Source of the DNA: Chromatiales bacterium
GTDB taxonomy: Bacteria > Pseudomonadota > Gammaproteobacteria > Steroidobacterales > GCA-2729495
Assembly: GCA_020351875.1 (NCBI GenBank)
Contig: CP070671.1
Span: forward strand, 197,010 to 261,009
Length of the DNA: 64,000 nt
Direction: 5' to 3'
The notes beneath the pieces are model-generated. The model was not told where the DNA came from. It saw nothing but the letters and a program-made list of their open reading frames with translations, and did no database searches. Both the position numbers and the translations under genes were made by a program. The stretch's first letter is position 1. Every line of letters begins with the position of its first letter. Of the stretch, positions 3,883-39,057 are shown piece by piece.

Positions 3883-5169
3883 GTGACTGATCAGGCCCTC
3901 CGGGTCGGCCCCATCCTGCTCGCCGACGGCATCCGACCGCGCCACGCGGTGAGCTTCTTGTTTGCCGCGTTCCTCGGCGTGTCGCTGACCACACTCATCA
4001 GCGCCATTCAGCCCTACGTGCTCAACGTGAATATCGGGTTGCCGGTGGCAGAGCAGGGGCGGGTCAGCGGGCAGATGGTGTTCTACGGCGAACTGGTGTT
4101 GCTGTTTGGCAGTTCGCTGATCGGCGTGTGGTCGGACCGCACCGGGCGCCGCACGGTCTTCATCGTGGGCATCACGATCCTGGCCATCGGCTACCTGGCT
4201 TACGGGTACGTTGACTCGGTCATGGCATTGACCACGGTGCGCGTTTTCCTCGCGCTCGGCATTGCGGCAATCAATGTGATGGTGGCCGCCCTGATGGTCG
4301 ATTATCCGGCCGAAGCATCGCGCGGCAAACTGGCAGGGGCGACCGGGATGGCCATCGGGCTTGGCGCGATCATGATCGGCGTGGTGTTCCTGCAATTGCC
4401 AACCGTGTATGCGGAGTCCGGCCGTGACGCGCTCACCGCCGGGCGCCTGGCGCTGTTCACGATGGCTGGACTTTGCGCGTTGCTGGGCATCGTGTTGCGC
4501 GCCGGGCTAAAGGGAGGCCCACCACCGAATCGGCCCCGGGGTGAAAGCCTGTGGGCGCAGTTGGCGCAGGGCATCAGAGCCGGGCGCGAGAACCCGCGCA
4601 TACTGCTTGCGTACCTCTGTGCCTTTGTTGCCCGGGCCGACCTGGTGGTCGTGGGCACTTTCTATACGCTCTGGTTGACCCAGGCCGGCGTCGCGCAGGG
4701 TATGTCGCCGGAGCAGGCGGCGGGGGTGGCCGGGCGATTTTTCGCGCTGGTGATGAGTTGCGCATTGTTCTGGGCCCCGGTCATGGGCTGGCTGAACGAC
4801 CGGGTCGATCGCGTCGTGGCGATGGGCCTTGCGATGTGCCTCGCCGGCATCGGGTACATCGGCATGTGGTTCATTCCTGACCCGCTGGGCGGGTGGATGT
4901 ACCCGGCCGGTGTGATGCTCGGTATCGGGCAGATGAGCGCGGTGACGGCCAGCCAGACCCTCATCGGCCAGGAGGCACCGCCCGCTTACCGCGGTTCCGT
5001 GGTCGGCATGTTTTCCTTCTTCGGGGCCGCCGGTATTCTCTTTATCACCAGTGTCGGCGGGCGCATGTACGATGCCGTCGATCCGGCGGCGCCGTTCCTG
5101 TTGATCGGGGTCGTGAACACCGCGCTGTTCGTGTGGGCGCTGCGTGTGCCGAGGAAGAACAATTCATGA
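3883..5169 (+). CDS. Major facilitator superfamily transporter
   Basis: A 428-residue, strongly hydrophobic protein with about twelve predicted membrane segments. The MFS signature between segments 2 and 3 is present as GVWSDRTGRR. The start is a GTG at 3883. Substrate cannot be read from the sequence. Its C-terminal half is clearly paralogous to the MFS protein at 13878-15227: both have NPRILLAY, a charged patch followed by a TLWL or SLWL stretch, and a GQEAP motif followed by FSFFGAAGI or FSLMGAAGI. Its stop overlaps the start of the bilin-reductase-like gene by four bases (ATGA), implying translational coupling and a shared pathway. It could export or import a catabolite in the inner membrane. 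Confidence 0.85.
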   Translation: MTDQALRVGPILLADGIRPRHAVSFLFAAFLGVSLTTLISAIQPYVLNVNIGLPVAEQGRVSGQMVFYGELVLLFGSSLIGVWSDRTGRRTVFIVGITILAIGYLAYGYVDSVMALTTVRVFLALGIAAINVMVAALMVDYPAEASRGKLAGATGMAIGLGAIMIGVVFLQLPTVYAESGRDALTAGRLALFTMAGLCALLGIVLRAGLKGGPPPNRPRGESLWAQLAQGIRAGRENPRILLAYLCAFVARADLVVVGTFYTLWLTQAGVAQGMSPEQAAGVAGRFFALVMSCALFWAPVMGWLNDRVDRVVAMGLAMCLAGIGYIGMWFIPDPLGGWMYPAGVMLGIGQMSAVTASQTLIGQEAPPAYRGSVVGMFSFFGAAGILFITSVGGRMYDAVDPAAPFLLIGVVNTALFVWALRVPRKNNS

Positions 5170-5879
5170 ACGATTCAGTGATCGGACTGCAGGCGCTGGG
5201 CGATGCCATCGAGCGGCGCCTGCTGAGTGAGCTCGACACGCGCCCGGACCCGCGTTTTGCCGAGCTGGAAGTGCTCAGGAACCTGGCGGGTGAAGCCACG
5301 GGACACGTTCGCGTGTACGCAGCGGACCGGCTGGTCAAGGCGAGCGCGCTATCGATCAGGATCGGACCCGGACGCTATTTCAATATCCACGTTATCCCCG
5401 AAGCGCGTTACGACATGCCCCGCTTCGTCTACGAAGGCATGTTGTTACCGATGGGCAGCCAGGTCTCCCTGGACCTGTTTCCCGATCTCGATGCACCGAC
5501 CGACATCGGTCACCTGCTGGAACTCTACAGCGAGGCCGTGAAGGTCTACGACGAGGCACGCCAGGACCCTGGCCTGCGTTTCGAAGCCTCGCGGCAGCTG
5601 CACATGCGTGCCTTCAGTTCGCCAATGTTCCTGTGCACGTTCGGCGTCCGGGAAGCGTCACTGCCGGCCATCGAGCGCTACGCACACGGCTATTTCGATG
5701 CCTGGCTCGGTCTCTATCAAAAGGCCGGGGAGTTGTCGCCCGCCGTCGCGGCTGCCCGCGAGGCACGGCGCGAGCACATGGCACGCACGATGATCGAGCT
5801 GGATCCCGATCGCCACCTCGTCGTGCAGGTGTTCGGCGAGGAGACCACGCAGGCGATCGAAGCCGCTACCATGCTCTGA
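5166..5879 (+). CDS. Putative ferredoxin-dependent bilin reductase/RCCR-like protein
   Basis: A 237-residue soluble protein with no signal peptide, starting at the ATG that overlaps the MFS stop. By eye it follows the ferredoxin-dependent bilin reductase fold family (PcyA, PebA, HY2 and plant red chlorophyll catabolite reductase). The central block FNIHVIPEARYDMPRF resembles the PcyA block around its catalytic His and the xGLPxFG turn. It is followed by a strand like SQVSLDLFPD. The C-terminus (REARREHMARTMIELD, then VVQVFGEETT) resembles the family pattern of Arg, Asn/Asp-Pro and FGE. In that alignment H75 falls at the PcyA catalytic His, and E90 sits where PcyA has its proton-donating Asp. 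These enzymes reduce linear tetrapyrroles using ferredoxin. The fold call is plausible; the substrate is inference. Confidence 0.55.
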   Translation: MNDSVIGLQALGDAIERRLLSELDTRPDPRFAELEVLRNLAGEATGHVRVYAADRLVKASALSIRIGPGRYFNIHVIPEARYDMPRFVYEGMLLPMGSQVSLDLFPDLDAPTDIGHLLELYSEAVKVYDEARQDPGLRFEASRQLHMRAFSSPMFLCTFGVREASLPAIERYAHGYFDAWLGLYQKAGELSPAVAAAREARREHMARTMIELDPDRHLVVQVFGEETTQAIEAATML

Positions 5880-5908
5880 CCCGATTGGACGATCTGTAAG
5901 GAAGACCT

Positions 5909-8638
5909 GTGAGCGTGCTGATCCGCCTGGTGCCTCTCGTTGCCGTCGCGCTGGCCGCCTGCGCCCCGGACCCCGTCGCGCCCATCTCGGCGCCGCCCGA
6001 GGCGCCCTTGGAGTGGCCACAGGCGAGGCTGCCGGCCGACGTGGTACCCACTGCGTATCGTCTCGACTTGACCATCGTGCCGGATCGGCTGGACTTCAGC
6101 GGCGTGACTGAAATCGATGTGTCCGTGGCTGTGCCGCTCGGCGGCTTCTGGTTCCACGGTAAGGACTTGCAGGTTCGCGAGCTCACGCTCACGCCGGCTG
6201 GCGGTGAGCCGGTTACCGGGACCTACAGCGAGGTGGGCGACGACGGTGTCGCCTGGGTGGCCCTCGCTCACGAGATCGCCGCGGGGCCGGCCACCATCCG
6301 GGTTGTTTATGACGCGCAGTTCGACAAGGGGCTGTTCGGCCTGTACCGCGTGGACGTCGGCGACGACGCCTACGCATTTACGCAGTTCGAAAGCACGTTT
6401 GCCCGCAAGGCCTTTCCAGGTTTCGATGAGCCGGCTTACAAGACCCCGTTTTCCACCAGCGTGACGACGCGCGCCGCTTACCGCGCGTTGAGCAATACCC
6501 GGGTAGTCGATGCGGAGTCGCTGCCGGGTGACATGCAGCGGCTGCGTTATGCCACGACGGAGCCCTTGCCGACCTACCTGATTGCGTTCGCTGTGGGTCC
6601 GCTGGATGTCGTCGAACATGCGTCCATACCCGCCAACGAGTATCGCGATGCGCCATTGCCGCTGCGGGGCGTCGCGTCCCGGGGCCAGGGACCGCGCCTG
6701 GACTTCGCGCTCGCCAACACGGCCGCCATCGTTGCCGATCTCGAGGCCTATTTCGGCCGCGCTTATCCTTTCGACAAGCTTGATATCGTGGCCGTACCCG
6801 ATTTTGCCGGCGGGGCGATGGAAAATGCGGGACTGATTACCTACCGCGAATCCCTATTGTTGTTCGACGACACATCGCCCGTCGGTCTGCAACGATTCTT
6901 TGGCCTGATTCACGCGCACGAACTGGGGCACCAGTGGTTCGGCAATCTCGTCACGATGCCGTGGTGGGACGATATCTGGCTGAACGAGGCCTTCGCATCC
7001 TGGATCCAGGCCAGGTCGGCGCAGAACTGGCGCCCCGACTTCCGGTTCCAGCAGTCGGTGCAGTCGCAGGCCCTGCGCGCGATGTCAGCCGACAGCCTGG
7101 TCAGTGCGCGGCAGATCAGGGAGCCGGTGGAAAATTACGATGACATCACCAGCGCGTTCGATGCGATTACCTACCAGAAGGGCGCGGCGGTCCTGCAGAT
7201 GTTCGAGCGCTATCTCGGTCCGGAGAGCTTCCAGGCCGGCATCCAGGCCCACATGCGCCGTTTCGAATTTGGCTCGGCCACCGTCTACGACCTGCTCGAT
7301 TCACTGGAATCCGCCGCCGGGTCCGGCATGGCCGTGCGCGAGCCTTTCGAGTCTTTCCTGTTTCAGCCCGGTTTGCCGTACGTCGAAATCAGCAGCCGTT
7401 GCGCCGCGCAGGGCGTCGAACTGGAGCTGGCCCAGACCCGCTACCTGCCCGTGGGATCGGCCGGGAAGCGCGACGTGACCTGGCAGCTGCCGGTTTGCGT
7501 GGGGGTTAGCGCAGACGGCGACCGGAGCGAGCATTGCCTGCTGCTGCAGGAGCCAACGCAAACTTTCACACTGGCCGACGTCGCCTGCCCGGAGTGGCTT
7601 TTGCCGAACGCAGGCGGCGCGGGTTATTACCGCTGGTTGCTGCGCGAGGACATGGGCTCCCTGGCTCAGGTGTTCCCGGACACGATGGATGGCGGGGAGC
7701 GGCTCAGCTACGTCGACAGCATTATCGCCGGTATCTATGCGGGCGAGCTGGCGCCGGCCGCGCTGCTGGATCAGCTGGCCACGATTGCCGGCGCACCGGA
7801 ACGCTACCCGGTGACCGCAGCTGTCACGGCCTACCAGCGAATGCTGGATATGCTGGTGGATGCACAACAGCGCGACGCGGCGAATCGTTTCGGCTTGGCC
7901 GCCTTCGGGCCGCGGCTCCAGGCCGTGCTGGCGGGCAGCGGGGCGTTGTCCGCGGCGGACGCCACGCTGCTGAAAGCAACACTGACGGAGCTGATGGCGC
8001 TCTGGCTGGCGGACACCGACACCCGTGAGCAGCTGGTCGATGCGGCGCGACGCTTCGTGGGTTACCCCAAAGGCACGTCGGCCGACAGCTCGGCATTGGA
8101 CTCCGACCTGCTCACGACGGCGCTGACCGCGGCAGTCCAGGCCGGCGGCCCGGAGTTTGCGACCTTCCTGGTCGACTACTTGCGCAACAGTCCGGACGCC
8201 CGAATTCGCCAGGCTGCGATCACCGCGCTGGCCCACGCGGGTGATCCGGAAAGCCTCGAACTGGTCCGGGCCCTGGCACTCGGCGGCGATCTGCGTGGCA
8301 ATGAGTTCCAGACCTGGGCCGGGTACCTGATGAATCCCGGTGCGCGGCAGCAGAACTGGGCATGGTTACAGAGGGATCTGCCGGAGTTCATGGCGGCGGC
8401 AACCCGGCGCGTGCGCCGTGAGCTGCCCCTGTATCTCAGTCGCGGTCTTTGCTCGGGTGAGGATGCCGACACCTTGCGCGCGCTGTTCCACGGTATCGCG
8501 GCGGATTACCCGGTCAGTCCGCGACGCCTGGAACAGGGCGTCGAAGCGGTGCAGCTGTGCGCGGCCCTGCGACAAGATCAGGCCGGCGCGGTGAACGAAT
8601 ACTTCCGGCGGACGGCCGTGGCCCGGGCCGGTCCCTAG
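5909..8638 (+). CDS. M1 family aminopeptidase, predicted lipoprotein
   Basis: A 909-residue zinc metallopeptidase. Translation starts at GTG 5909 behind AAGGAAG. The first 20 residues form a signal ending in LAAC, a lipobox, so the enzyme should be anchored facing the periplasm. The M1 signatures are complete: the exopeptidase motif GAMEN at 302-306, and HELGH at 337-341 with the third zinc ligand E360 in LNEAF. The C-terminal half is the long helical domain seen in ERAP1/aminopeptidase N-type enzymes. It removes N-terminal residues from peptides. It begins 29 bases after the bilin-reductase-like gene on the same strand and may be co-transcribed, though no functional link is evident. Confidence 0.93.
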   Translation: MSVLIRLVPLVAVALAACAPDPVAPISAPPEAPLEWPQARLPADVVPTAYRLDLTIVPDRLDFSGVTEIDVSVAVPLGGFWFHGKDLQVRELTLTPAGGEPVTGTYSEVGDDGVAWVALAHEIAAGPATIRVVYDAQFDKGLFGLYRVDVGDDAYAFTQFESTFARKAFPGFDEPAYKTPFSTSVTTRAAYRALSNTRVVDAESLPGDMQRLRYATTEPLPTYLIAFAVGPLDVVEHASIPANEYRDAPLPLRGVASRGQGPRLDFALANTAAIVADLEAYFGRAYPFDKLDIVAVPDFAGGAMENAGLITYRESLLLFDDTSPVGLQRFFGLIHAHELGHQWFGNLVTMPWWDDIWLNEAFASWIQARSAQNWRPDFRFQQSVQSQALRAMSADSLVSARQIREPVENYDDITSAFDAITYQKGAAVLQMFERYLGPESFQAGIQAHMRRFEFGSATVYDLLDSLESAAGSGMAVREPFESFLFQPGLPYVEISSRCAAQGVELELAQTRYLPVGSAGKRDVTWQLPVCVGVSADGDRSEHCLLLQEPTQTFTLADVACPEWLLPNAGGAGYYRWLLREDMGSLAQVFPDTMDGGERLSYVDSIIAGIYAGELAPAALLDQLATIAGAPERYPVTAAVTAYQRMLDMLVDAQQRDAANRFGLAAFGPRLQAVLAGSGALSAADATLLKATLTELMALWLADTDTREQLVDAARRFVGYPKGTSADSSALDSDLLTTALTAAVQAGGPEFATFLVDYLRNSPDARIRQAAITALAHAGDPESLELVRALALGGDLRGNEFQTWAGYLMNPGARQQNWAWLQRDLPEFMAAATRRVRRELPLYLSRGLCSGEDADTLRALFHGIAADYPVSPRRLEQGVEAVQLCAALRQDQAGAVNEYFRRTAVARAGP

Positions 8639-8662
8639 GCCGGGGCCGCGCGCGGGCGGGTT

Positions 8663-10123
8663 TCAGTCCGGGAGCAGGGCGACCTGCACCCGGTTGTTTT
8701 CCCGCGCAACGCGATTCCAGTCACCGGCGGCAACGCCGGCCAGGCCCGGCGGGTACGCGGCGAGTGGCGCCGAGATTCCCAGTGCATTGATCTGCACCGA
8801 GATGGGGTTGGCCGGATCGCTCTGCAGGGCCGCGATGTAGTTGGCGAAGCGGATCGATTGCTTCGCAGACAGTTGCAGTGCTTCTTCCGCATCCATGCCG
8901 AGCCGATCGCAGTCCAGCAGGGCCAGGTCCGCCGGTGCCATCATGTAACCGCCGAGCCCGTCGGCAACCTGGCAAAACTCACCCACGTGGGTGTCGATCT
9001 GCACGACCCCGGAGAAGCCGATCGCGCGGAGCTGGGCAATCAGTCCGTCCAGCCAGTCGACCCGTTCATCACCCAGCGGAATTTCACCCATCGCAAACCT
9101 GCCCGCCTGGTTGACCGTCCATTCCACTGCCGCGAGGAAGTCGAAATAGCCGTCGCCGGCGGTGCCGGCGCCCCATTCATCTTCGGTCTTCGTGGACGCT
9201 CGCGCCCGGTCGCTGCGCTGCCAATCGAGCGCCGCGATGAGCTCCTGGTTGCGGGCGGTCACATTTTGTAATTCGCTGCGCGTGTCCAGTTGCAACACGA
9301 GCAGGACGATGGCCAGTACGGCGAGGGCAGCAACACCTGCTATCGAGGCCGCGTTGCGCGGGTCCTGCGCGCCGACCGCGACCGGCTCAACGGCGAGTGG
9401 TTCCGCCGCGGCACCCGGTTCGCGCTGCGCGTCGGCCGGCTGGCTGCGGCGATCGCCCGGGCCCTGTCGCCGATCCGGCAATCCTTGCCGGCGGTCCTGC
9501 AGGTTTTGACGCCGTTCCTCACCGTTGTGGCCCGGCTCGTCGAGCAGCCGGCGCATGCTCGTCTCGATGTCCTGTTTCAATGCCTGGCTGTGCTGGTTCA
9601 GCATCTCCGTCAGCCAGTCATGCAGCTCGGACCAGTTCGCCACTTCGATCTTGTCGCTGACGTCCGCCAGGGTTCGCTCACCGCGTCCCGTCCGCGCAGC
9701 GGCTTCGTCTGCCGTGTCCGGTCCGGTCTCCTGCGCTTCGCCTGCGGCGGGAATCAGGTGCAACGACTGCAGAATCTCGGTCACCTCTACCGGCTTGATC
9801 TGCTTCGGCAGCACACCCACGGCGCCCAGGGCCCGCGCCTGGCCCACATACAACTCGCCCGCCTGCGACGTGTACATCATGATCGGAATGGTGGCGGTGG
9901 CCGGGTTGTCCTTGATGGCCCGCACCGCCTGGAACCCGTCCATGCCCGGCATCATGTGATCCATGAAAATCACGTCCGGGCGCGCGGTGCTGAGGTATTC
10001 CAGCGCGTCTTCGGCGGACTCGGTGGTTTCTACGCGCATCTGGTGCGCAGTCAGGAGCCTACGCAGCACCTGCCGCGCAGTCTTGGAGTCATCGACGATC
10101 AGGGCGCACTTCTGTCCGGCCAA
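8663..10123 (-). CDS. Response-regulator receiver domain fused to a TM segment and divergent OmpA-like domain
   Basis: 486 residues with unusual architecture. Residues 1-120 are a receiver domain with acidic pair D11/D12, phosphoacceptor D55 (FMDHMMPGMDG), T85 and K107. Residues 200-228 hold an Arg-rich repeat of RRQ/DRR units, then a Pro/Ala linker. One transmembrane helix lies at about 259-279 (AASIAGVAALAVLAIVLLVL). The rest (280-486) would be periplasmic. Its end (LSAKQSIRFANYIAAL, later NNRVQVAL) resembles the peptidoglycan-binding OmpA/MotB C-domain, but weakly. This suggests a cytoplasmic phospho-switch linked to the cell wall across the inner membrane. No partner histidine kinase is in the window. 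The receiver call is firm; the OmpA-like call is tentative. Confidence 0.8.
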   Translation of the reverse strand: MAGQKCALIVDDSKTARQVLRRLLTAHQMRVETTESAEDALEYLSTARPDVIFMDHMMPGMDGFQAVRAIKDNPATATIPIMMYTSQAGELYVGQARALGAVGVLPKQIKPVEVTEILQSLHLIPAAGEAQETGPDTADEAAARTGRGERTLADVSDKIEVANWSELHDWLTEMLNQHSQALKQDIETSMRRLLDEPGHNGEERRQNLQDRRQGLPDRRQGPGDRRSQPADAQREPGAAAEPLAVEPVAVGAQDPRNAASIAGVAALAVLAIVLLVLQLDTRSELQNVTARNQELIAALDWQRSDRARASTKTEDEWGAGTAGDGYFDFLAAVEWTVNQAGRFAMGEIPLGDERVDWLDGLIAQLRAIGFSGVVQIDTHVGEFCQVADGLGGYMMAPADLALLDCDRLGMDAEEALQLSAKQSIRFANYIAALQSDPANPISVQINALGISAPLAAYPPGLAGVAAGDWNRVARENNRVQVALLPD

Positions 10124-10260
10124 TGGAGCTCTCCCAACACTGCTCGCGGACGGCCTGCTCCTATTCTACGCTGTTGTCGTGCGCCAGATTCCGTGAACCA
10201 GATAGCGAATTGGGGGGTTCCCGCCAGGCCCGGGCTACCCCAGTGGTTGAGATCGTGGCT

Positions 10261-11403
10261 TCAACTGGCTGCTTTCAGCGCGCCGCGGCCAGTCCCGGAC
10301 AGCAGCGAAACCGTCTTGTGGACCCAGTTCTTCGGGTCTTCCCGGTGACCCGGGCACGGGATCACGCGGATGTGCGTGTCCGCTACCTCCCGCCACGCCG
10401 CGGTGTCGATCCTGCCGGCCTGTTCGCCGTATTCCACAGTCATTTTGCGAACTTGCGCCAGGGTCCGGTCCGCGTCCACCAGCAGTTCTTCGGTCGGCGA
10501 CGCGGCCTGCCGCGGACGCGTGGTTTTCAGCACCACGTAGTCTTCGTCCATCACGGTATCCCTCGTCATGGCCACGAGCATCCGGTGTTCCTCGGCCGTC
10601 GCGCCGCGCACCCGGCTGCCGTCTCTTGCTTCACTTTCGTGCTTCGGCATCAGGATGACCATGTGGATCTGGGTATTACGCTCGTCAATGGGTGTGACAT
10701 ACGCGGTCACGATCTGCGGGGGATAATCCGGCTGGTAATTCGTATTGCGCGACACGCAACTGATGACGTTGTACTCCATCATCAGGCCGGCGCTGTCGCC
10801 GTAGTTGCCCTCGGCGTCCCACGCGGCGTGCCACGCCTTCACGTAACGATCGGTGAGTTCGTGGTCGACAATGGTGACGCCTTTCGGCAGCCACTTGGCA
10901 AATTCGTGGATGTAGTGCACGTGGCAGGGATCGTTGTAGTTTTCCGCCATGCGCAGGTAGTTGATATCCTTGTGGCGGGAGATCACGTCCTTGTGCCAGT
11001 CATCGGAGTCCCATTCCGGCATGATGTCGGGCAGCGCGGGTCGTTCGTCGGTACCCTGGTCGCCGAGGAACACGAACACGAGCCCGTATTGTTCCTGCAC
11101 GGGGTACGCGGGCACGCGGGCTCGCTTCGGTGGCTCGGTGGGCGTCCGGGTGCCGGCGGGGATCAGCGTGCAGCGGCCGGCGCCGTTGAAGACCCATCCG
11201 TGCTGCGGGCATTCGAGTTTGCCGCCTTTGCACTGGCCGACGGCCAGCGATGCGCCGCGGTGCACGCACAGGTCGCTCAGGCAGTGCGCTACGCCCGACT
11301 CATCGCGAAACATCACCAGGTCCGCGCCCAGGATTCGCACGCGTTTCGGCGTGTCGGCCAGCTCGTCGGCGATGCAGGCCACGTACCAGTTGTTGATAAA
11401 CAT
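10261..11403 (-). CDS. Rieske non-heme iron oxygenase, alpha-subunit type (first of two)
   Basis: The ATG at 11403 gives 380 residues beginning MFINNWYVAC, with GGGAG upstream, which is preferable to an in-frame start at 11508. The Rieske [2Fe-2S] ligands are C46/H48 and C65/H68 (LCVHRGA and CPQHGW). A mononuclear iron site is visible as NDPCHVHYIH. Members use ferredoxin-derived electrons and O2 to hydroxylate, demethylate or open rings. The C-terminal text VIPCPGHREDPKNW is shared with the paralogue at 12732-13853, so the two arose by duplication. No reductase or dedicated ferredoxin is encoded nearby. It is last in the minus-strand cluster, 140 bases below the flavin monooxygenase. Substrate is unknown; aromatic acids or a macrocycle are both possible. 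Confidence 0.88.
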   Translation of the reverse strand: MFINNWYVACIADELADTPKRVRILGADLVMFRDESGVAHCLSDLCVHRGASLAVGQCKGGKLECPQHGWVFNGAGRCTLIPAGTRTPTEPPKRARVPAYPVQEQYGLVFVFLGDQGTDERPALPDIMPEWDSDDWHKDVISRHKDINYLRMAENYNDPCHVHYIHEFAKWLPKGVTIVDHELTDRYVKAWHAAWDAEGNYGDSAGLMMEYNVISCVSRNTNYQPDYPPQIVTAYVTPIDERNTQIHMVILMPKHESEARDGSRVRGATAEEHRMLVAMTRDTVMDEDYVVLKTTRPRQAASPTEELLVDADRTLAQVRKMTVEYGEQAGRIDTAAWREVADTHIRVIPCPGHREDPKNWVHKTVSLLSGTGRGALKAAS

Positions 11404-11543
11404 CGGGTTGTCTCCCGGCGATTGCCAAACGCCAGCATTCAGGTCTTGTGCCCCATGATTATAAGGAAACGCGGCCTGGCTCACGGGCCCGGGTCCAGCC
11501 GGCCCCAACGTTGACCGCGGGGCGGCTGGCGGTCGCGCGGCGG

Positions 11544-12713
11544 CTAAACTGCGACCGTGAGCGGGTTGTAGTCATATAAACCCAGGGATTCGGCGTTGCG
11601 GTGAGAGTTGCGGTCGAGGCGGTCCGGGTCGCGAGAGTAGATTCGGCGTGCGTTCACATGCGACTGCAGCATCACGAAGGTGCCGCGTTCCCGCCGCGCG
11701 TTCTCGTAGCGGGCCAGTGCCTCGGGCCAGTCGTCCGCCGCCGCGACCGCGCGTGCCAGCACCATGCCGTCTTCGATCGCCATTGCCGCGCCCTGGGCCA
11801 GGAACGGCGTCATCGGGTGGCTGGCATCGCCGAGCAGCGTGGCCCGGCCCCTGGTCCACCGGGATAACGGCGGCCGGTCGAACAGGCCCCACTTGAAGCA
11901 CTGGTCAGGCGGCACGGCCTGGAGTATCGCCTGGACCTCCGGCGCGAAGTCGGCAAACTCCGCCGTCACTTCGGCGATTTCTGCACGCTCCGACCAGCTT
12001 TCCAGCTCCCATTGCGCCCGGCTGCTGAACGCGACGAAGTTGAACAGGTCACCGCGGCGTACCTTGTAACGGGTGAAGGTCCGCCCGGGCCCCGCGAACG
12101 CCGCCGAGTCCGGGGTCAGGAATGCCGGGTCGAGCTTGGCCGTGGGTACCAGGCCGCGCCACGCAATGTAGCCGGTGAACCGAGGTTGATCTGCGCCCCA
12201 CAGGTTGCGGCGGACCTCTGACCGAATCCCATCACACCCGATCAATACGTCACCGGTCGCCTGCCGGCCGTTCGTGAAGATCGCCGATATGCCGTTGTCG
12301 GATTCCTCGAGCGTGGTGAAGGTGCTGTCCACGTGGAGGCAGCCCGGGTCATGTTCGGCCACGGCAGCGGCGAGCGCGGCGTGCAGGTCCGCCCGGTGCA
12401 CCTGGCAATAGTTCGCGCCGTACTTTTGCCGCGGCAGGTCGCCGCGCTCGGTGTCCACCAGGATTTCGCCGGTCAGATAGTGTTTCACTGCGCCGGACAG
12501 CGGCACATGGCAGATGTCATCGACGAGTGCCCGGCCGAGCAGGTGGTTCAGAACGTGGCACGCATTCGGCGTGATCGTGACCCCGGCCCCGATTTCACCC
12601 AGTTCCGCAACCTGTTCGTAAACCGACACCCGACAGCCCGCACGCTGCAGGGCCAGCGCTGCGGTCAGGCCACCGATGCCGGCGCCGATGATCAGTGCAT
12701 GCAGGTCCCGCAT
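11544..12713 (-). CDS. FAD-dependent monooxygenase (salicylate hydroxylase-like)
   Basis: 389 residues with the class A flavoprotein monooxygenase signatures. The N-terminal dinucleotide fold is IIGAGIGGLTAALAL, the middle motif is IGCDGIRS (the DG motif that binds FAD and NADPH), and the late GD motif is LLGDASHPMTP. These single-component enzymes use NAD(P)H and O2 to hydroxylate aromatic or related rings. It lies between the two Rieske genes on the same strand, 18 bases downstream of one and 140 upstream of the other. A sequential oxidation of one substrate is the natural reading. Salicylate or 3-hydroxybenzoate hydroxylases are the usual database neighbours, but residue-level substrate assignment is not possible here. 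Confidence 0.9.
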   Translation of the reverse strand: MRDLHALIIGAGIGGLTAALALQRAGCRVSVYEQVAELGEIGAGVTITPNACHVLNHLLGRALVDDICHVPLSGAVKHYLTGEILVDTERGDLPRQKYGANYCQVHRADLHAALAAAVAEHDPGCLHVDSTFTTLEESDNGISAIFTNGRQATGDVLIGCDGIRSEVRRNLWGADQPRFTGYIAWRGLVPTAKLDPAFLTPDSAAFAGPGRTFTRYKVRRGDLFNFVAFSSRAQWELESWSERAEIAEVTAEFADFAPEVQAILQAVPPDQCFKWGLFDRPPLSRWTRGRATLLGDASHPMTPFLAQGAAMAIEDGMVLARAVAAADDWPEALARYENARRERGTFVMLQSHVNARRIYSRDPDRLDRNSHRNAESLGLYDYNPLTVAV

Positions 12714-12731
12714 CTCTGGCCTGTCTGAATC

Positions 12732-13853
12732 CTACTGGTCGGCATCATCGCCCGGGCGCATCGGTACCGGTCGCAGGACCCAGTTCTTCGGATCTCGGCT
12801 GCGCGCCGGCGACGGGATCACCCGTGCATAGTCGTCTTCGTTCCGTATTGCGCGCGTGTCGATCGCGTCGCCGGCCGCTTCGCGGGCCTTGACTCGCTTG
12901 CGGAACATCACGCCGTGCTTGTCCGAGTCGAGCAGTAACTCATCCGACAGCAGCGGGGGCACCCGCGCGGGTTGCAGGTGATCGAGAACGGCGGCGTCCT
13001 CGCCCAGGACGAGGAAAACACGTTTGCGGGCATCCTCGTCGTATTTTTCGTCGGTCATGAAGTTGCGCGCCTGGATGAAAGTCAGTTGCGTCAGTCCTTC
13101 ATTGATGGGGGTGTAAGCGGTCACGATGATCTGCGACTTCGGCGGCTGCATGTGCATCTGGATACGAATGCTCGGCGCCGGCACGTAGATCTGCACCTCT
13201 GTTTCCCGTTCGTCGCGCTGGTCCGGGATCGCATCGCGCCAGGTGCCGCGCTTGTTCAGCGGTTTGCCCGCGCCAATGCAGTACAGCCGGTGTTCCTCGT
13301 CGACGACTTCGTACGGCGCGGCAACGGTGCGTTCGGGATTGCCGAAATCGGTGTGCACAAACACCGCGTGGGTTCGGTCCACGCCGTTCTCGATGGCCCG
13401 CACCCAGTTGCACTGGAACTGCGCCTTGCCGCGATTGAAGCGCCATTCCCCGTCCTGAGCCTCGTACTCGGGAAAAAAGTCGGGCAACGGCGGACGCTCC
13501 GCCTCCGGCAGGTCACCGAGGAATACCCAGATCCAGCCCCAGCGCTCGTCCGTCGGGTAGGCGTCGACGCGGGCGCGCTTCGGAATCTTGCCGTCCGGGC
13601 CAAGCGACGGGATCAGCACACACTCACCGGCACCGTTGTAGCGCCAGCCGTGATAAGGGCACTGCACCGTGCCGTCGACCACTTTCCCGCGGCACAGCGA
13701 CCCGCCTTTGTGGACACAGATGTCGCTGAGACAACGAACCTGGCCCTGTTCGTCGCGGAACAGGACGAAGTCCTGGTCCAGCGCGTGCACGCCGAGTGGT
13801 TCAGTGCCCACTTCGTCCGACAGGGCCAGCACGTACCAGTTGTTGATCAGCAT
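12732..13853 (-). CDS. Rieske non-heme iron oxygenase, alpha-subunit type (second)
   Basis: 373 residues from an ATG at 13853. The layout matches the Rieske protein at 10261-11403 residue for residue at the cluster (C46, H48, C65, H68). An ENGVDRTHAVFVH iron-site helix is present and the closing text is VIPSPARSRDPKNW. Two diverged copies in one cluster suggest two chemically different oxidations on the same skeleton, not redundancy. It follows the MFS gene by 24 bases and precedes the flavin monooxygenase by 18, so this is one transcription unit. Electron partners are not encoded nearby. The closest functional classes include vanillate demethylase-type and PaO/TIC55-type oxygenases, which cannot be separated by eye. 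Confidence 0.9.
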   Translation of the reverse strand: MLINNWYVLALSDEVGTEPLGVHALDQDFVLFRDEQGQVRCLSDICVHKGGSLCRGKVVDGTVQCPYHGWRYNGAGECVLIPSLGPDGKIPKRARVDAYPTDERWGWIWVFLGDLPEAERPPLPDFFPEYEAQDGEWRFNRGKAQFQCNWVRAIENGVDRTHAVFVHTDFGNPERTVAAPYEVVDEEHRLYCIGAGKPLNKRGTWRDAIPDQRDERETEVQIYVPAPSIRIQMHMQPPKSQIIVTAYTPINEGLTQLTFIQARNFMTDEKYDEDARKRVFLVLGEDAAVLDHLQPARVPPLLSDELLLDSDKHGVMFRKRVKAREAAGDAIDTRAIRNEDDYARVIPSPARSRDPKNWVLRPVPMRPGDDADQ

Positions 13854-13877
13854 GTCGCGGCTTCTCCCCTGTTGTTC

Positions 13878-15227
13878 TCAACCGGAGTCGGATTGACGGT
13901 CGGGCACGGGCACGGCCGTGGTGATTTCCCGCTGCCGCAGGATCAGTGCTGCGATCAGCACGACACCGTTCACGAGACCCATCATCGTAAACGGTGCCGT
14001 TTGGCCAAAGCGGTCGAAGACGATGCCGCCGGTGAAAGTGAGCAGCATGATGCCGGCCGCACCCATCAGGCTGAACGTGCCCAGCACCGCGCCACGGCTG
14101 CGGGCCGGCGCCTCCTGGCCCACCAGCACGCCCCCGGAAATCACGGCGCTGGACTCGCCCATGCCCACCAGCACGCACGCGAACAGCATTGGGGCGCCAC
14201 CGAAGGGATTGTCGATTTGCCCGAGTGCGAGATAGCCCAGCGTGGCCAGGCCAAAAGCCACGCACATGGCCGTCATGCGCGGCAGCCGGTCGATGATGAT
14301 GCCGATGGGGTAGGACCAGAGCAGCCCCGCCAGCTGGCTGAGGCCAAACAGCATGCCGGCTTTCGCGGTGCTTTCTGCCGCGCTCAGGCCCAGCTCGTTG
14401 CCACGTTGCACCAGCCACAGGGAGAAGAACGCGGTCAGCACGGCGAGGTCGCCGCGGGACGCAAAGGCCATGCCATAGGCGAGCAGGATGCGCGGGTTGC
14501 GGCGCGCCTCGGCGAAGCCGCGGGTCGCGACCTTCAGGCTGCTATCGCGGCGGTTGATGTTCACGGTGCCGGGCGACAGCCCGAACCGCAGCACGATCGC
14601 CAGTGCCAGCAAATAGGCGGCGAAGGTCCAGTAGCTCAGGCGAATCGCCTGCACGCTGTCGAAACCGGCTGCCACGTACCAGGCAGGCAGGCGGGACAGC
14701 AGCAGGGCCATCAACACGACCCCCAGGCCGTTGAAAAAGCCGACGGTGCCCATCCACCGGCCGCGGGAACTTTCCTGTGAATATTCCGCGATGCACACGT
14801 GCAGCATCACGGACGCTCCGGCGAAACCGAAGGCATAGAAAATCCGCGCGCCGAACAGCTGCAGTTCCGTCTCGGCCAGCGGGTAGACCACGAAGCCCAG
14901 GCCCAGCAGGCACACGCCTGCCACGTATACGACACGGCGGCCCAGTCGATCCGACGAAGCGCCGATGAAACTGACCAGCAGGATCACGATGACTTCCTGC
15001 ACGAAGCCGAGCATGCCGATCAGCGAGCCCTGGCGTGCCTTCGGTACGTGCAGCACTTCCTGCAGCAGGTAGGGCTGGACGAAGGCGTTGAAAGTGAACA
15101 GGCAGATCAGGCAGAAGCCGCTGAACAGCAGGATCCCGGCGTTGCCGCGGCTGATGCCCGGCGTCAGCCAGAACGGTCCGAGCCGGATGCCGGAGGTGTC
15201 GGGCTCGTATTCCGGCCGCCGGCTCAC
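13878..15227 (-). CDS. Major facilitator superfamily transporter, paralogue of the one at 3883-5169
   Basis: 449 residues with around twelve membrane segments and the segment 2-3 signature GASSDRLGRR. Shared blocks with the MFS protein at 3883-5169 (NPRILLAY; GQEAP; GAAGI followed by a Thr/Gly stretch) show common ancestry within a narrow subfamily. It overlaps the upstream chelatase-like gene by four bases and sits 24 bases before a Rieske gene, so it is embedded in the oxygenase operon. A role moving the pathway substrate or product across the inner membrane is inferred. The N-terminus carries a hydrophilic extension of about 25 residues before the first segment. Confidence 0.85.
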   Translation of the reverse strand: MSRRPEYEPDTSGIRLGPFWLTPGISRGNAGILLFSGFCLICLFTFNAFVQPYLLQEVLHVPKARQGSLIGMLGFVQEVIVILLVSFIGASSDRLGRRVVYVAGVCLLGLGFVVYPLAETELQLFGARIFYAFGFAGASVMLHVCIAEYSQESSRGRWMGTVGFFNGLGVVLMALLLSRLPAWYVAAGFDSVQAIRLSYWTFAAYLLALAIVLRFGLSPGTVNINRRDSSLKVATRGFAEARRNPRILLAYGMAFASRGDLAVLTAFFSLWLVQRGNELGLSAAESTAKAGMLFGLSQLAGLLWSYPIGIIIDRLPRMTAMCVAFGLATLGYLALGQIDNPFGGAPMLFACVLVGMGESSAVISGGVLVGQEAPARSRGAVLGTFSLMGAAGIMLLTFTGGIVFDRFGQTAPFTMMGLVNGVVLIAALILRQREITTAVPVPDRQSDSG

Positions 15228-16285
15228 TGTTTCATGGCGTCCATCACGGTTTCCTGGAACCAGCGCGTGAAGTTCGGGTGCATCGTGATGCCTTTCACGC
15301 TGAACTCGTAGTCAAGGCCAGCCAGGTCGCGCTCGATTTTCCACTGGATGCTGCGTGCAGCGAGCAGGTCGGTCACGATAAGCACGCGCTTGCCATCGGC
15401 CAGCGCTGCTTCGATCTTTGCCCGCAACCTGGCCACATTGGCCGCGCGGACCTTCGGCGCGGCGTCATCCTGCAGCGTGATGCCCTCGACGCTCGAAAAA
15501 CCGCCGAGTTCCTGTATGCGCTCCGCCTGCTTCGCCAGCACTCGCAATTGCGCCTGGTTCTCTTCGTCGTGGATCGGCCCGTGAGCGACCACGAACAGGG
15601 CCTCGTTGTCCGGGTCGGTGCTTAGCTCCAGGGCGTGATCGAGCACGATCTGCGTAATCAGCGGGTGGTCTGCCGGCGGCTCGGTCATGATTACCCGGTC
15701 GTCGGTTTGCACCCGCGGTACGTCGTAATAGCTGCCGCGTTCGCGCAAGCCGAAGATGTACTCCCACTGGTAGATCAGCGTATTGCGGCGTGAGGAGACC
15801 ATCGGGACCACGATGACGGTATTCGCGCCCGCCGCGGTGACCTCGTCGAGTGACCGCTGGATGTGTTCCGAGCCCATCATGGACATCCCGGCACTCATCG
15901 CGGTGGGAAAGATGTCGGCCAGTGGCTGCACCGCCTCGGACATCACGCGGTCGCCGGTTTTGCCGAAACCGTGGATCAGCACCACCACCGCGGTTTCACC
16001 TTCCAGGCCCGCCGGGCTCAGGTAGCGGGATTTGTTCGGACCCATCATCTGCATGTCGAGACGAATCTGCTGATCGGGGGCGTCCCGATAAGCGGGTATG
16101 CGTTCGCGCAGTGCGGCGAACATCTCCGGCGTCATCTGGTGATTGCCGTGAGACACGGTCTCGACTGTGGCCCCGTGATCCGCGTGATCCTGGGCAATGG
16201 CAGGCGCACCAGTGATTGGCAGCATGACCAGTGCGACAGCGCACAACACCAGGCTCCCTTTGCAGACACTGACGAAGACACCCAT
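15224..16285 (-). CDS. Exported CbiX/SirB-like chelatase superfamily protein
   Basis: 353 residues. A signal peptide (VLCAVALVMLPITGAPAIAQ) is followed by a His-rich stretch with H34, H37, H46 and H49. Two half-domains follow, each with a chelatase-like loop: VVVLIHGFGKTGD with H105, and LFVVAHGPIHDEE with H235 and H239. CbiX, CbiK and SirB enzymes insert Co or Fe into sirohydrochlorin, and periplasmic versions are known. This protein would act in the periplasm. It is the first gene of the minus-strand cluster, overlapping the MFS gene by four bases. In an oxygenase operon, a role in handling a metallated or demetallated tetrapyrrole is an attractive inference. It could instead be a metal-binding protein. 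The superfamily call is moderate. Confidence 0.6.
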   Translation of the reverse strand: MGVFVSVCKGSLVLCAVALVMLPITGAPAIAQDHADHGATVETVSHGNHQMTPEMFAALRERIPAYRDAPDQQIRLDMQMMGPNKSRYLSPAGLEGETAVVVLIHGFGKTGDRVMSEAVQPLADIFPTAMSAGMSMMGSEHIQRSLDEVTAAGANTVIVVPMVSSRRNTLIYQWEYIFGLRERGSYYDVPRVQTDDRVIMTEPPADHPLITQIVLDHALELSTDPDNEALFVVAHGPIHDEENQAQLRVLAKQAERIQELGGFSSVEGITLQDDAAPKVRAANVARLRAKIEAALADGKRVLIVTDLLAARSIQWKIERDLAGLDYEFSVKGITMHPNFTRWFQETVMDAMKQ

Positions 16286-34047: not shown

Positions 34048-35064
34048 TCAACTCGGCTCATTGTCGAGGTAGTCGGCTGTCAGTTCCTCGCTCACCTGCC
34101 ACAGGCGTGCCGCCATCGCGCGATCTTCCGTATGCCCGCCGGCATGTATCGGGTTGCAGTGTTCGAAGAAGTAGCCGCTGGTCTGCGCGAGTGCCGGCGT
34201 GGTGGCCACGTAAACCTGCGTGGCCGCACCTTGCGGAATGGTTTTTGTGAACAACTTGCCGACGGTCTTCAGCAACAGCGGTTTCCATGCCGGCATGTGG
34301 CGGCCGAGGTTCGTCGGGATCACGCCGGGGCGGACCGTGTTGGACGTCGCCGCGTTGTCCTCTAAACGTTGCGCGAGTTCCAGCGAAAAAAGAGCATTTG
34401 CAAGTTTCGACTGGCCATAAGCCAGTGTTGGGTCATAGCCCTTTTCCCCTCCAAGATTGTCGAACTGAATGCCTCCCTCGGGCGTATTGCGCGTCGCCTG
34501 GCCGCTGCTCACGTGCACGATGCGGCCTTGCGGGGCGGCCAGCACCTGCTCGAGCAGCTGGTTCACGAGTATGAAATGCCCGAGGTGGTTCACGGCGAAC
34601 TGCCGCTCGATGCCATAGACCTGCTGCAGCTCCGGCAGCTCCATGATGCCCGCATTACAGATCAGCATGTCGATCGGTGTGTTCAGCGCGCGGACCTGTT
34701 CGGCCGCGGCCACGATGCTGGGCCAGTCCGCAAGGTCGAAAGCCGACGGTGTGGTACGGCCTTCCATACTGTCGCAGGCGCCCCGCGCCTTGTCTGCCGT
34801 GCGCGCCGCGCAGATCACGTGCGCACCACGTAGTGCCAGTACCCGGGCCGTCTCAAAGCCAATGCCGGAATTCGACCCGGTGACCAGCGCCGTCTGGCCG
34901 CTCAGGTCCAGACCGGCCGTGACTTCCTCAGCGGTGGCATCCCGGCCGAAAGGGCCCACTGGCACGCCGGCGGGACGCGCGATTTCTTCATCGCCCCCGC
35001 ACGCGGCGGTGCTGCCCGCGGCGGCCGTCACCACGGTGGTCCGGATGAATTCGCGACGGTTCAT
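34048..35064 (-). CDS. Tat-exported short-chain dehydrogenase, possible Tat lipoprotein
   Basis: 338 residues. The start MNRREFIRTTVVTAAAGSTA is a twin-arginine signal, and AACGG at its end resembles a lipobox. The mature protein is a standard SDR: the NAD(P) site is TGSNSGIGFET, NAGIM follows, and the catalytic set is S in HVSSG with Y/K in YGQSK. It resembles retinol dehydrogenase/WW-domain-oxidoreductase-like SDRs. Export is odd because SDRs need NAD(P)H, which is scarce outside the cytoplasm. Tat export would carry the cofactor bound. Its start overlaps the PQQ dehydrogenase stop by four bases, so both are co-translated exported redox enzymes. Confidence 0.85.
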   Translation of the reverse strand: MNRREFIRTTVVTAAAGSTAACGGDEEIARPAGVPVGPFGRDATAEEVTAGLDLSGQTALVTGSNSGIGFETARVLALRGAHVICAARTADKARGACDSMEGRTTPSAFDLADWPSIVAAAEQVRALNTPIDMLICNAGIMELPELQQVYGIERQFAVNHLGHFILVNQLLEQVLAAPQGRIVHVSSGQATRNTPEGGIQFDNLGGEKGYDPTLAYGQSKLANALFSLELAQRLEDNAATSNTVRPGVIPTNLGRHMPAWKPLLLKTVGKLFTKTIPQGAATQVYVATTPALAQTSGYFFEHCNPIHAGGHTEDRAMAARLWQVSEELTADYLDNEPS

Positions 35065-37202: not shown

Positions 37203-38012
37203 TTACCGCGGGTCCGTTTCCGCATCGATGGTCCGGGTCGTGATTGGGATGGCGGGGGCGCCCGCGATCAGCCTCCGCAGCGCAGGGCCAAGCACCGGCA
37301 AGCGATAGGCTTTGCCGTTGCGCATGTTGCCCGTGATGATCCGTGCCAAGTGTTCGCCCGCGAATTCCGGTTCATTGCCCAGGTAGCGCTGCGCTGCGGG
37401 CAACAGTTTCATGCGGTGTTCGTGGCCGGCTACGACCTGGACGTCCAGGGTCATCTGCGTGTGGACCAGGCCCGGCTGGAAAGTCGCAACCGCGATGTTC
37501 GTGCCGCGGACTTCGGTGGCTATTGCGCGGGTGAAAGACCGGATCCAGGTCTTCGCCGGTCCGTAGGAGTTGGAAAAGGGCACAGGCCTTGTCGCGCCGC
37601 GGCCGAGCACATTCAGCAGCCGCCCGTGCCCCTGCGCGTGGAAGAGTCGCAGTGCATGCACGGAGCACAGACACGTGCCCTTGATGTTGGTGTCGATCAG
37701 CCGCTGCAGGTAAGCGGTCGGAATTTGGTCCGTGCGCCCGGTGATGCCGGGCATACCGGCGTTATTGATCCACGCGTCGACAGGCTGCCCGTCCGCCTGG
37801 GCGAAGCCTAAGAGGTCGATCACCTGTTGCTCGCTGCAGATGTCACAACGCATACCGCGGGCGGGTAGACCGTCCCGCTGCAGTGTGTCGAGCGCCCGCG
37901 CGACGTCGTCGCCGTCCTCGGAGCAGATCACCACCGTGTGGCCCCTGGCCAGCAGGGCGCGAGCAGCCGCGAGCCCCAGCCCCCGGGTTGCGCCAGTAAT
38001 GACGATGTTCAC
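37203..38012 (-). CDS. Short-chain dehydrogenase resembling the chlorophyll b reductase (NYC1/NOL) group
   Basis: 269 residues, cytoplasmic, with the NADP site NIVITGATRGLGLAAARA. The active-site pair Y/K is in YGPAK. The usual catalytic Ser region is replaced by LLNVLGRGA. By eye it follows plant NOL/NYC1 chlorophyll b reductases: ITGxTRGLG, a conserved CD before the AWINNAG block, TNxxGxxLC, a Gly-rich motif in place of the Ser (NMDGAG in plants), and YGxxK. Ordinary SDRs share some of this, so the resemblance is suggestive only. Plant members reduce the 7-formyl group of chlorophyll b. It is 28 bases upstream-adjacent to the LLM gene, which precedes it in the same direction. Confidence 0.65.
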   Translation of the reverse strand: MNIVITGATRGLGLAAARALLARGHTVVICSEDGDDVARALDTLQRDGLPARGMRCDICSEQQVIDLLGFAQADGQPVDAWINNAGMPGITGRTDQIPTAYLQRLIDTNIKGTCLCSVHALRLFHAQGHGRLLNVLGRGATRPVPFSNSYGPAKTWIRSFTRAIATEVRGTNIAVATFQPGLVHTQMTLDVQVVAGHEHRMKLLPAAQRYLGNEPEFAGEHLARIITGNMRNGKAYRLPVLGPALRRLIAGAPAIPITTRTIDAETDPR

Positions 38013-38040: not shown

Positions 38041-39057
38041 TCAGCCGTTCACTGCGGGCATGACCCGCTCGCCGATCAGCTTGATCGATGCCTCTGGATT
38101 CTCGTACACCCGGACACAGATATCCGTGAGCCCCGAGGCTTCGAACTGTTTCAGCCGTTCGATCTCGAAGTCCAGTTCGTCGAGAGAGGAGGCCGCGGTG
38201 CAGCGGCGGCACAGCTTGTCGAGAATTTCCCGCGGGATTTCCGGGATGTTCGAATCCTGCTCGTAGAAGGCACGGTTCAGCGCGTTGACGTTGTCCCAGA
38301 CCACCTGCATTTCTTCGTCGGGCAAAATACCGCGGTGGTAGTAGGCCGGCCACGGTGTCACCCGGGCAGCCAGCCACGTGCGGGACTCTGCCAGGGCTGC
38401 TTCCGGGTCTTCTTTCACATGCCAGGCCCAGAAGTTCAGCAGCTTGAAATCGTCCTTGTTCGGATTGCGCTCGAGTTCCGGGTTGATCGTCTCGCGGACC
38501 TCGGCCACGTGCTCGGGCAGGTGGTCGCCGAGGTAAATGCCCTTCGCGTAATGGGCGCTCGACTTCAGCATCTGCGGCCCGCCGGCGCAGACGTAGACCG
38601 GTGGCTCGGGCTGGCTGACCCAGCTCGCGTGGTACCAGCGGCACATGTACATCCGCCCGTCATATTTGACCATCTCGCCGGTTGCCATCTTGTCGATGAT
38701 TTCTACGCATTCATGCACCGCGGTCAGGCGGTGTTCCGCAATCATGCCCATTGCAAACGCGGTGCCGCCATCGCCCGCAGAAATACCGATGTGTGCCCGG
38801 CCTTCGGCGATTTCATTCAGGGTCAGCAGCGCGTTGCCCATCTTTATCGGGTGCAGTTCGTAAGGGGACACCGCCACGGGGCCCATGCGGATCTTGCTGG
38901 TCGCGCGGGCCGCGTCCACGAAGTTCACGAAGGGGTCGCGCCCGTCGTGCATGTTCGACACCCACAGGCCGACGAAGCCGCACTCTTCCGCCAGTTGCGC
39001 GAGTTCGGCCGTGCGTTCCGGGCCGGTGTTCGGATGGATGATCAGGTTGAAGCGCAT
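38041..39057 (-). CDS. LLM-class (luciferase-like) flavin-dependent oxidoreductase
   Basis: 338 residues of the bacterial luciferase-like TIM barrel. Visible are EECGFVGLWVSNMHDG near the N-terminus, ARATSKIRMGPVAVSPYELH, and EGRAHIGISAGDGG. Members use FMNH2 or F420 for oxygenation or hydride transfer. The cofactor cannot be fixed here; in this phylum FMN with a separate reductase is likelier than F420. The gene precedes the NOL-like SDR by 28 bases on the same strand and follows the molybdoenzyme genes by about 100 bases. Confidence 0.9.
   Translation of the reverse strand: MRFNLIIHPNTGPERTAELAQLAEECGFVGLWVSNMHDGRDPFVNFVDAARATSKIRMGPVAVSPYELHPIKMGNALLTLNEIAEGRAHIGISAGDGGTAFAMGMIAEHRLTAVHECVEIIDKMATGEMVKYDGRMYMCRWYHASWVSQPEPPVYVCAGGPQMLKSSAHYAKGIYLGDHLPEHVAEVRETINPELERNPNKDDFKLLNFWAWHVKEDPEAALAESRTWLAARVTPWPAYYHRGILPDEEMQVVWDNVNALNRAFYEQDSNIPEIPREILDKLCRRCTAASSLDELDFEIERLKQFEASGLTDICVRVYENPEASIKLIGERVMPAVNG

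Follow-up and report, generated by a model that had tools for sequence, protein, structure and literature searches.

A predicted linear-tetrapyrrole reductase close to RCCR, coupled to a transporter gene, and a candidate chlorophyll-type catabolic gene set in a gammaproteobacterial family

We analysed a stretch of 64,000 nt from contig CP070671.1 (positions 197,010-261,009), called the window throughout, and concentrated on the gene at 5166-5879, a predicted reductase of linear tetrapyrroles, together with the transporter, oxygenase and chelatase-like genes that lie near it. The host genome (G000) is a single contig of 3.49 Mb. The comparison drew on a main panel of 60 genomes, 37 of them from the family of the window, and on a sample of 369 genomes spread evenly over the class; most genomes without a match go unlisted there, and the sample was taken to hold no further family members. 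Since the genomes are related by shared descent, gene counts across the family are not independent events. The initial annotation had read the region as a candidate gene set for the breakdown of chlorophyll-type tetrapyrroles. It described two units with major facilitator superfamily (MFS) transporters, one with a bilin-reductase/RCCR-like protein and the other with two Rieske oxygenases, a flavin monooxygenase and an exported CbiX-like chelatase. All of these genes were located in the window, at or near the places that it gave:

3883-5169, + strand: MFS1, an MFS transporter (PF07690, 140.6 bits) that overlaps the reductase gene by 4 bases
5166-5879, + strand: reductase of the RCCR/FDBR fold (w-type), a predicted linear-tetrapyrrole reductase (PF05996, 25.0 bits; cut-off 31)
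10261-11508, - strand: RieskeA, a Rieske oxygenase (PF00355, 77.4 bits; VanA_C, 23.4 bits against a cut-off of 23.5)
11544-12713, - strand: FMO, an FAD monooxygenase (PF01494, 79.5 bits)
12732-13853, - strand: RieskeB, a Rieske oxygenase (PF00355, 84.4 bits; VanA_C, 77.6 bits against a cut-off of 23.5)
13878-15227, - strand: MFS2, a paralogue of MFS1 (PF07690, 131 bits)
15224-16285, - strand: CbiX/SirB-like protein of predicted chelatase fold with a His-rich N-terminus, judged by eye from that N-terminus to be exported

The overlap between MFS1 and the reductase gene reads ATGA, which agrees with the proposed coupling of the two, and MFS1 and MFS2 proved paralogous as claimed, with 37% identity over 98% of MFS1. 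A match to the window reductase at E<=1e-50 was taken to define the w-type. This gave 14 loci including the window, in 14 of the 37 family genomes, and the 13 relatives are each 42-58% identical to the window protein. A homologue of MFS1 lies directly beside the w-type reductase in nine of the 14 loci (the window, L036, L037, L039, L040, L041, L042, L046 and L048); in L041 the two genes are convergent. In L044 the homologue is 3.3 kb away. The L047 contig begins about 1 kb ahead of the reductase and carries a 54-residue piece of the homologue immediately before it. No MFS1 homologue was found in L038, L045 and L043, the last a contig of 5.7 kb. The 12 related loci in named records all come from gammaproteobacterial metagenome-assembled genomes, four of which are labelled Chromatiales. 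Judged from the isolate names, the relatives, and hence the host, are probably marine. A plasmid search with the window reductase returned no match.

A Pfam scan of 5166-5879 at E<=0.1 returned a single family, PF05996 (E=1.7e-5, under the curated cut-off), and a whole-genome search at E<=0.001 gave two PF05996 matches, neither of them the window reductase. Five w-type relatives exceed the cut-off, with a top score of 37.2 bits. The NCBIfam matches were three phycoerythrobilin:ferredoxin oxidoreductase models, all far under their cut-offs. PF06405, the RCCR family, did not match the window protein at E<=0.1, and one w-type relative (L046) matched it weakly (18.0 bits). The AlphaFold2 model, built from the 14-row alignment, had a mean pLDDT of 90.1. 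Its top Foldseek matches were GtPEBB, HY2, PcyA and AtRCCR, with E values from 1.9e-11. VIA-align gave Z scores of 23.5 for HY2, 23.3 for the F218V form of AtRCCR, 23.2 for RCCR 2zxk, 23.1 for GtPEBB, 22.5 for both PebA and a mutant form of PcyA, 18.4 for PebS and 15.4 for PcyX. A chain of the chloroplast Ycf2-FtsHi complex reached 20.7, coproporphyrinogen oxidases reached at most 17.1, and unrelated chains stayed under 5. As far as prediction can settle it, 5166-5879 belongs to the fold superfamily (alpha/beta/alpha sandwich) of RCCR and the ferredoxin-dependent bilin reductases (FDBRs). The initial annotation had hung its proposal on this fold, and it was the fold obtained. Because the close Z scores are tied, they do not pick the RCCR or the FDBR subfamily. 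That the protein acts on a linear tetrapyrrole is, in our judgement, highly probable.

Beyond the window gene, G000 holds three further genes of the reductase fold, which stand for the RCCR type (L033:9787-10602; PF06405, 45.5 bits, cut-off 24.9), the m-type (L034:9688-10374; PF05996, 71.3 bits) and the p-type (L035:9531-10421; PF05996, 61.3 bits). Plant RCCR acts on the opened chlorophyll ring. The relation of the window protein to it was examined in an unrooted tree of 64 rows, made up of 59 proteins from these genomes and five references (two phage PcyA and the PDB segments of GtPEBB, tomato HY2 and AtRCCR). One split, with a support of 96/91, placed the w-type, the bacterial RCCR type and AtRCCR on one side and PcyA, GtPEBB, HY2, the m-type and the p-type on the other. 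When AtRCCR was left out, the w-type and the RCCR type were separated from the rest with a support of 100/99.

The conserved residues point the same way in part. E90, D103 and D213 are invariant in the 14 w-type proteins, and in all 14 of them E90 and D213 align with a Glu and an Asp read from the PDB letters of AtRCCR, which we take to be the active-site residues Glu154 and Asp291. Place 90 is Glu in every w-type protein and in AtRCCR, Asp in both phage PcyA and GtPEBB, Asn in HY2, Gln in nine p-type rows and Phe in 13 m-type rows. The w-type thus carries Glu throughout instead of the central Asp of the FDBRs (PcyA Asp105, GtPEBB Asp-99). Asp-99 is essential in GtPEBB, and HY2 of vascular plants is likewise without the central Asp, according to PMC6755814. 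D213, the counterpart of GtPEBB Asp-219, is present in the w-, RCCR, m- and p-types and in AtRCCR, GtPEBB and HY2, but absent from both PcyA. S142 and R148 are shared by the w-type, AtRCCR and, respectively, 21 and 23 of the 23 bacterial RCCR-type rows, and are not found in PcyA, GtPEBB or HY2; D109 is common to the w-type, AtRCCR, all 23 of these rows and HY2. None of the 14 w-type rows has Arg at the place of GtPEBB Arg-215.

The window protein therefore resembles AtRCCR (2zxk/3aga/3agb) in predicted fold, side of the tree, central Glu and the equivalents of D103, D109, S142, R148 and D213, which are identical in the w-type. It differs in being shorter, bacterial, coupled to an MFS gene, without a PF06405 match and only 16% identical over the fold. 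It shares with the FDBRs (PcyA, PebA/B, HY2) the PF05996 match, the fold and Asp213, and departs from them in the central Glu and in the missing Arg. Tree and residues lean to RCCR, though not decisively, and we regard 5166-5879 as a putative deep lineage close to RCCR, uncharacterised as far as we have seen.

The reductases are concentrated in the family. PF06405 matched at E<=0.001 in 32 of the 60 panel genomes and 30 of the 37 from the family (over the cut-off in 29 of 60), and PF05996 in 23 of 60 and 22 of 37 (over the cut-off in 22 of 60), with the window gene not counted among the PF05996 matches. In the class sample, four of the 369 genomes had a PF06405 match, two of these being family members, and three had a PF05996 match, two from family members and the third a gene that also matches PF06405. 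Since both families are frequent here and rare in the class sample, the reductase set is close to a family trait. The RCCR homologues L121, L124 and L149 (G301) and L125 and L150 (G396) belong to a distant gammaproteobacterial family, f146, and are the sole ones from outside the family in the 369 genomes. The G000 RCCR homologue, which is without the AtRCCR Glu, lies beside two-component-like genes (by eye), and like neighbours occur at the RCCR-type genes of L049 and L052.

The m-type gene stands in an operon that is common, in its upstream part, to G000, G002, G009 and G016, with genes for a cupin protein, an amidohydrolase, an AMP-ligase, a DsbA-like protein and a molybdopterin oxidoreductase; nitrilases and UbiD occur beside it in G002, G009, G016 and G026. 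These surroundings look degradative. The G000 m-type gene sits between that of the molybdopterin oxidoreductase and a tandem of three proteins, each about 1000 aa long, that look by eye like receptors. A phage search with the m-type reductase found only distant cyanophage PcyA, in four records. Among the nine p-type proteins, five match PCP_red, a protochlorophyllide reductase domain, at E<=0.05 (best 1.6e-6), and the G000 protein reaches 19.4 bits against a cut-off of 32.5. The p-type may join a tetrapyrrole reductase and a domain that binds chlorophyll precursors in one fused protein.

We next consider the source of the substrate. PF01126 heme oxygenase was over its cut-off in two of the 60 genomes, one of these two being among the 37 from the family; no w-type genome, G000 included, had a match at that level, while three controls were detected; G009 has a match under the cut-off. 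The reaction-centre family PF00124 was missing from 24 of the 25 family genomes searched, G000 included. The remaining genome, G002, belongs to the genus of the host and has two PF00124 genes (G002:C24:21096-22763). Given that reductases and chelatase-fold proteins are many and PF01126 is mostly missing, an environmental pigment of the chlorophyll type is a likelier source than the cell's own heme. The scarcity of PF01126, the absence of PF00124 and the PCP_red matches lean to a chlorophyll-type over a heme-derived substrate, and a chlorophyll-type substrate for 5166-5879 is plausible, if held tentatively.

The protein at 15224-16285 gave no Pfam match at E<=0.1, nor did three relatives at 0.05, and its NCBIfam matches were weak chelatase-like models far under their cut-offs. 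Its AlphaFold2 model, made from a 21-row alignment, had a pLDDT of 86.0, with residues 1-40 mostly below 50. The model matched SirB with a Z of 19.2 over 231 residues, periplasmic CbiK and FetB with 16.4 each, and coproporphyrin and protoporphyrin ferrochelatases with about 15.6-17, and H105 and H235 are invariant in the 21 aligned rows, window protein included. The predicted model thus has the class II chelatase fold, so that the chelatase part of the earlier claim held at the level of fold, while export was judged by eye. Like SirB, CbiK and Porphyromonas gingivalis FetB, the protein has this predicted fold and two invariant HG histidines; unlike them, it has a His-rich N-terminus and multiple copies in family genomes, and it is 11-18% identical to them. 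CbiK of D. vulgaris is also titled periplasmic. Homologues occur in 35 of 60 genomes and 32 of 37 in the family, with zero to six matches per genome, five of them in G000; two or more matches, fragments counted, occur in 25 of the 37. Paired exported chelatase-fold genes were seen in L112-L118 (e.g. L115:9260-12192). Ahead of the L115 pair lie genes for an ATPase, a TetR regulator and a permease of the FtsX/MacB type (Pfam, L115 only), with like-sized genes in L114 and L116. An HrtRBA-like heme exporter was considered at L115 and dropped because none of the matches is heme-specific: LolD and DevA scored best for the ATPase and KstR for TetR, and the permease type is that of FtsX/MacB.

Both Rieske oxygenases of the second unit have intact CxH..CxxH and NxxDxxHxxxxH motifs, and the flavin monooxygenase between them is likewise confirmed by its PF01494 match. 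RieskeA, which probably begins at residue 36 of the listed frame (ATG at 11403), is 34-36% identical to RieskeB. RieskeB is by its sequence clearly a VanA_C Rieske protein, and RieskeA falls 0.1 bit under the cut-off. The two resemble VanA/DdmC-type monooxygenases in having Rieske and VanA_C domains, yet their matches to solved members of that group mostly span the Rieske half only. The spacing seen in the window, with RieskeA about 5 kb away from the w-type gene, recurs in G001, whose RieskeA orthologue is 79% identical. G003 keeps the CbiX-MFS2-FMO order at 72, 80 and 76% identity, with no RieskeB between MFS2 and FMO and the contig ending about 0.3 kb past FMO. What ties the Rieske/FMO/chelatase unit to that of the reductase is proximity and a paralogous transporter, a link that is no more than suggestive. 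That the two form one pathway is doubtful.

Two genes further along the window are possible partners:

34048-35064, - strand: SDRa, a short-chain dehydrogenase/reductase (SDR) with homologues near the w-type reductase in four other loci and near RieskeA orthologues in two loci (L101 and L102)
38041-39057, - strand: luciferase-like (LLM) oxidoreductase (PF00296, 129 bits)

Homologues of the LLM protein (34-40% identical) occur near the w-type reductase in seven other loci, and G003 has a 78% homologue about 7 kb from its p-type reductase. Further recurrent neighbours of the w-type are 2-oxoglutarate-oxygenase/TPR proteins (five loci), TonB receptors (four), SDRs (four) and amine oxidases (three); all neighbour counts for MFS, LLM, SDR and Rieske proteins are raw, without a chance expectation, and one member per kind was named by Pfam and the others by similarity. 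The SDR at 37203, put forward as chlorophyll b reductase-like, gave only generic SDR matches in Pfam and NCBIfam, and the proposal was rejected. By eye from the translations, 43473-63520 resembles a laminarin-use locus, with successive genes for glycoside hydrolases and for the transport of sugars.

Taken as a whole, the locus is best explained, with somewhat less than an even chance, by catabolism of environmental chlorophyll-type pigments with an RCCR-near reductase and MFS1, a Rieske enzyme and an exported chelatase-fold protein. The fold, the tree, the residues, the enrichment in the family and the scarcity of PF01126 favour a catabolic linear-tetrapyrrole reductase. The protein at 5166-5879 would reduce a linear tetrapyrrole derived from environmental chlorophyll-type pigments, presumably in a ferredoxin-dependent manner, with Glu90 and Asp213 as central acids. 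MFS1 may be the inner-membrane carrier for the pigment or for its product, in a direction that is conjectural here. Ring opening might fall to a Rieske enzyme, perhaps RieskeA, and the handling of the metal to the exported chelatase-fold protein.

Several results weigh against this account. Constraining the w-type with PcyA, PEBB and HY2 costs 5.1 log units and was left unrejected by the approximately unbiased test (p-AU 0.152). The tree tool warned of meeting long branches, with and without AtRCCR, and in a tree without a root the w-type may be either RCCR's sister or the earliest branch on the side of the FDBRs. Place 90 in the 23 bacterial RCCR-type rows is Ile (21) or Ala (2), never Glu, and HMMER puts the AtRCCR Glu in a two-letter insertion relative to the bacterial RCCR-type profile. 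The window protein scores on PF05996 and the bilin-reductase models of NCBIfam, not on PF06405, and a PDB profile search with the w-type alignment listed GtPEBB (1.5e-5) and HY2 (0.0067) and no RCCR chain. The surviving FDBR placement, the profile matches and the PDB search speak for a rival reading in which the reductase works on heme-derived biliverdin, in turnover or chromophore synthesis, like the pre-PcyA enzymes of heterotrophic bacteria, with chlorophyll uninvolved. So does Asn73, which sits at the place of PcyA His88, as PMC10151467 reports for pre-2. We consider this unlikely, since PF01126 is over the cut-off in a single family genome and in neither G000 nor any other w-type genome, and the central acid is Glu rather than Asp; the heme-opener negative covers PF01126 only, the IsdG, HugZ and HemS types not having been searched. 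It is improbable that the genes were retained after the loss of photosynthesis and serve to detoxify or recycle bacteriochlorophyll made by the lineage or its ancestors. G002 does combine PF00124 genes with w-, m- and RCCR-type genes, and the p-type reductases bear a PCP_red-like domain; against this stand the 24 family genomes without PF00124 and the order members that have it (G037, G040, G044), which lack any PF05996 or PF06405 match.

The other points against our preferred account, catabolism of environmental chlorophyll-type pigments, concern the second unit. PaO/CAO/TIC55 identity of RieskeA and RieskeB was rejected: neither matches PF08417 at E<=0.1, both are VanA_C-type, and neither has the C-terminal CxxC that we take to mark that family. 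PF08417 was found in none of 40 genomes, G000 included, with two controls detected, so any Rieske ring-opener here lies outside the PaO family. A PDB profile search with the chelatase-like alignment reached a sirohydrochlorin chelatase at E=0.12 only. Rieske genes lie within about 10 kb of the w-type reductase in six of the 14 loci, from three genera (the window, L036, L042, L046, L047 and L048, one of them a fragment), but matches to RieskeA at E<=1e-40 number 11 in G000, 11 in G001, seven in G010, eight in G017 and three in G022 (G024 was not searched), and with several Rieske genes per genome such proximity is weak evidence. In G003 the RieskeA orthologue and the w-type gene lie on contigs other than that of CbiX-MFS2-FMO. 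The initial annotation had named aromatic-acid catabolism as its main alternative. This has become a serious rival for the Rieske/FMO/chelatase unit, unit 1 keeping its RCCR-leaning reductase: the second unit would have no connection with the reductase and would form a pathway for aromatics or for O-/N-demethylation, and tetrapyrroles would concern unit 1 only. We give this close to an even chance. The C-termini are VanA_C-type, the best phmmer matches are SxtT/SxtDIOX for RieskeA and DdmC for RieskeB, both score highest in NCBIfam on 4beta-methylsterol monooxygenase (well short of its cut-off), and FMO on 3-hydroxybenzoate 6-monooxygenase (266 bits, cut-off 459). Moreover, UbiD decarboxylases are encoded no more than 3 kb from the RieskeA orthologues of L103, L104 and L105, from three genomes of one genus. 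This reading has to accommodate a chelatase-fold protein and a paralogue of the reductase-coupled transporter in the same gene run, the closeness of the RieskeA orthologue to the w-type gene in G001 and the SDRa homologues that accompany one or the other of these genes in other genera; in addition, no ring-cleavage dioxygenase was recognised by Pfam among the five genes of the unit.

Compared with the plant PaO/phyllobilin route, the locus has a similar parts list, namely a chelatase-fold protein, Rieske oxygenases, an RCCR-like reductase and transporters. The RCCR/FDBR fold, the lean to RCCR and the RCCR homologue in the genome speak for part of the plant-like set first proposed; the parallel fails for the PaO-type Rieske enzyme, the CxxC motif and the chlorophyll b reductase. 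The genes are also clustered here, in a presumed heterotroph, with Rieske proteins of the VanA_C type and no match to PaO or Staygreen. The Staygreen dechelatase was found in none of the 60 genomes, a result that is no proof of absence because no control genome was detected either.

Among published systems, Rockwell et al. (PMC10151467) describe heterotrophic bacteria whose bilin reductase genes lie close to those for heme oxygenase, V4R and globin proteins, as well as sequences from Schekmanbacteria that are seemingly between FDBRs and RCCRs. There, pre-1 and pre-3 sit in a heme oxygenase/V4R/globin cluster, whereas the window reductase is found with an MFS gene (its neighbouring open reading frames being partly annotated). 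PMC13193486 mentions two more clades without characterised members, PMC2716323 reports RCCR homologues in symbiotic cyanobacteria, and plant RCCR is treated in PMC4950323. Titles and abstract starts in the open-licence PMC literature gave, among the matches listed, no bacterial gene set for opening or consuming chlorophyll.

The production and destruction of chlorophyll in the sea are both enormous. A mostly non-phototrophic, probably marine gammaproteobacterial family might have a dedicated system for phytoplankton pigments, although we think a complete system of this kind unlikely on present evidence. It would combine uptake, metal stripping outside the cytoplasm by exported chelatase-fold proteins, ring opening by VanA-type Rieske enzymes, four reductase types, and the splitting and use of pyrroles by the nitrilase-, isochorismatase-, amidohydrolase- and UbiD-type enzymes around the sister reductases. 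If true, this would amount to a catabolism of chlorophyll by microbes, in contrast to plants, whose route serves detoxification. The family-wide reductases on the RCCR side, in genomes mostly without PF01126, are named candidate genes for bacterial chlorophyll breakdown. The w-type would add a lineage near the divide between RCCR and the FDBRs, and so may bear on the origin of bilin reductases in heterotrophic bacteria, a subject of PMC10151467.

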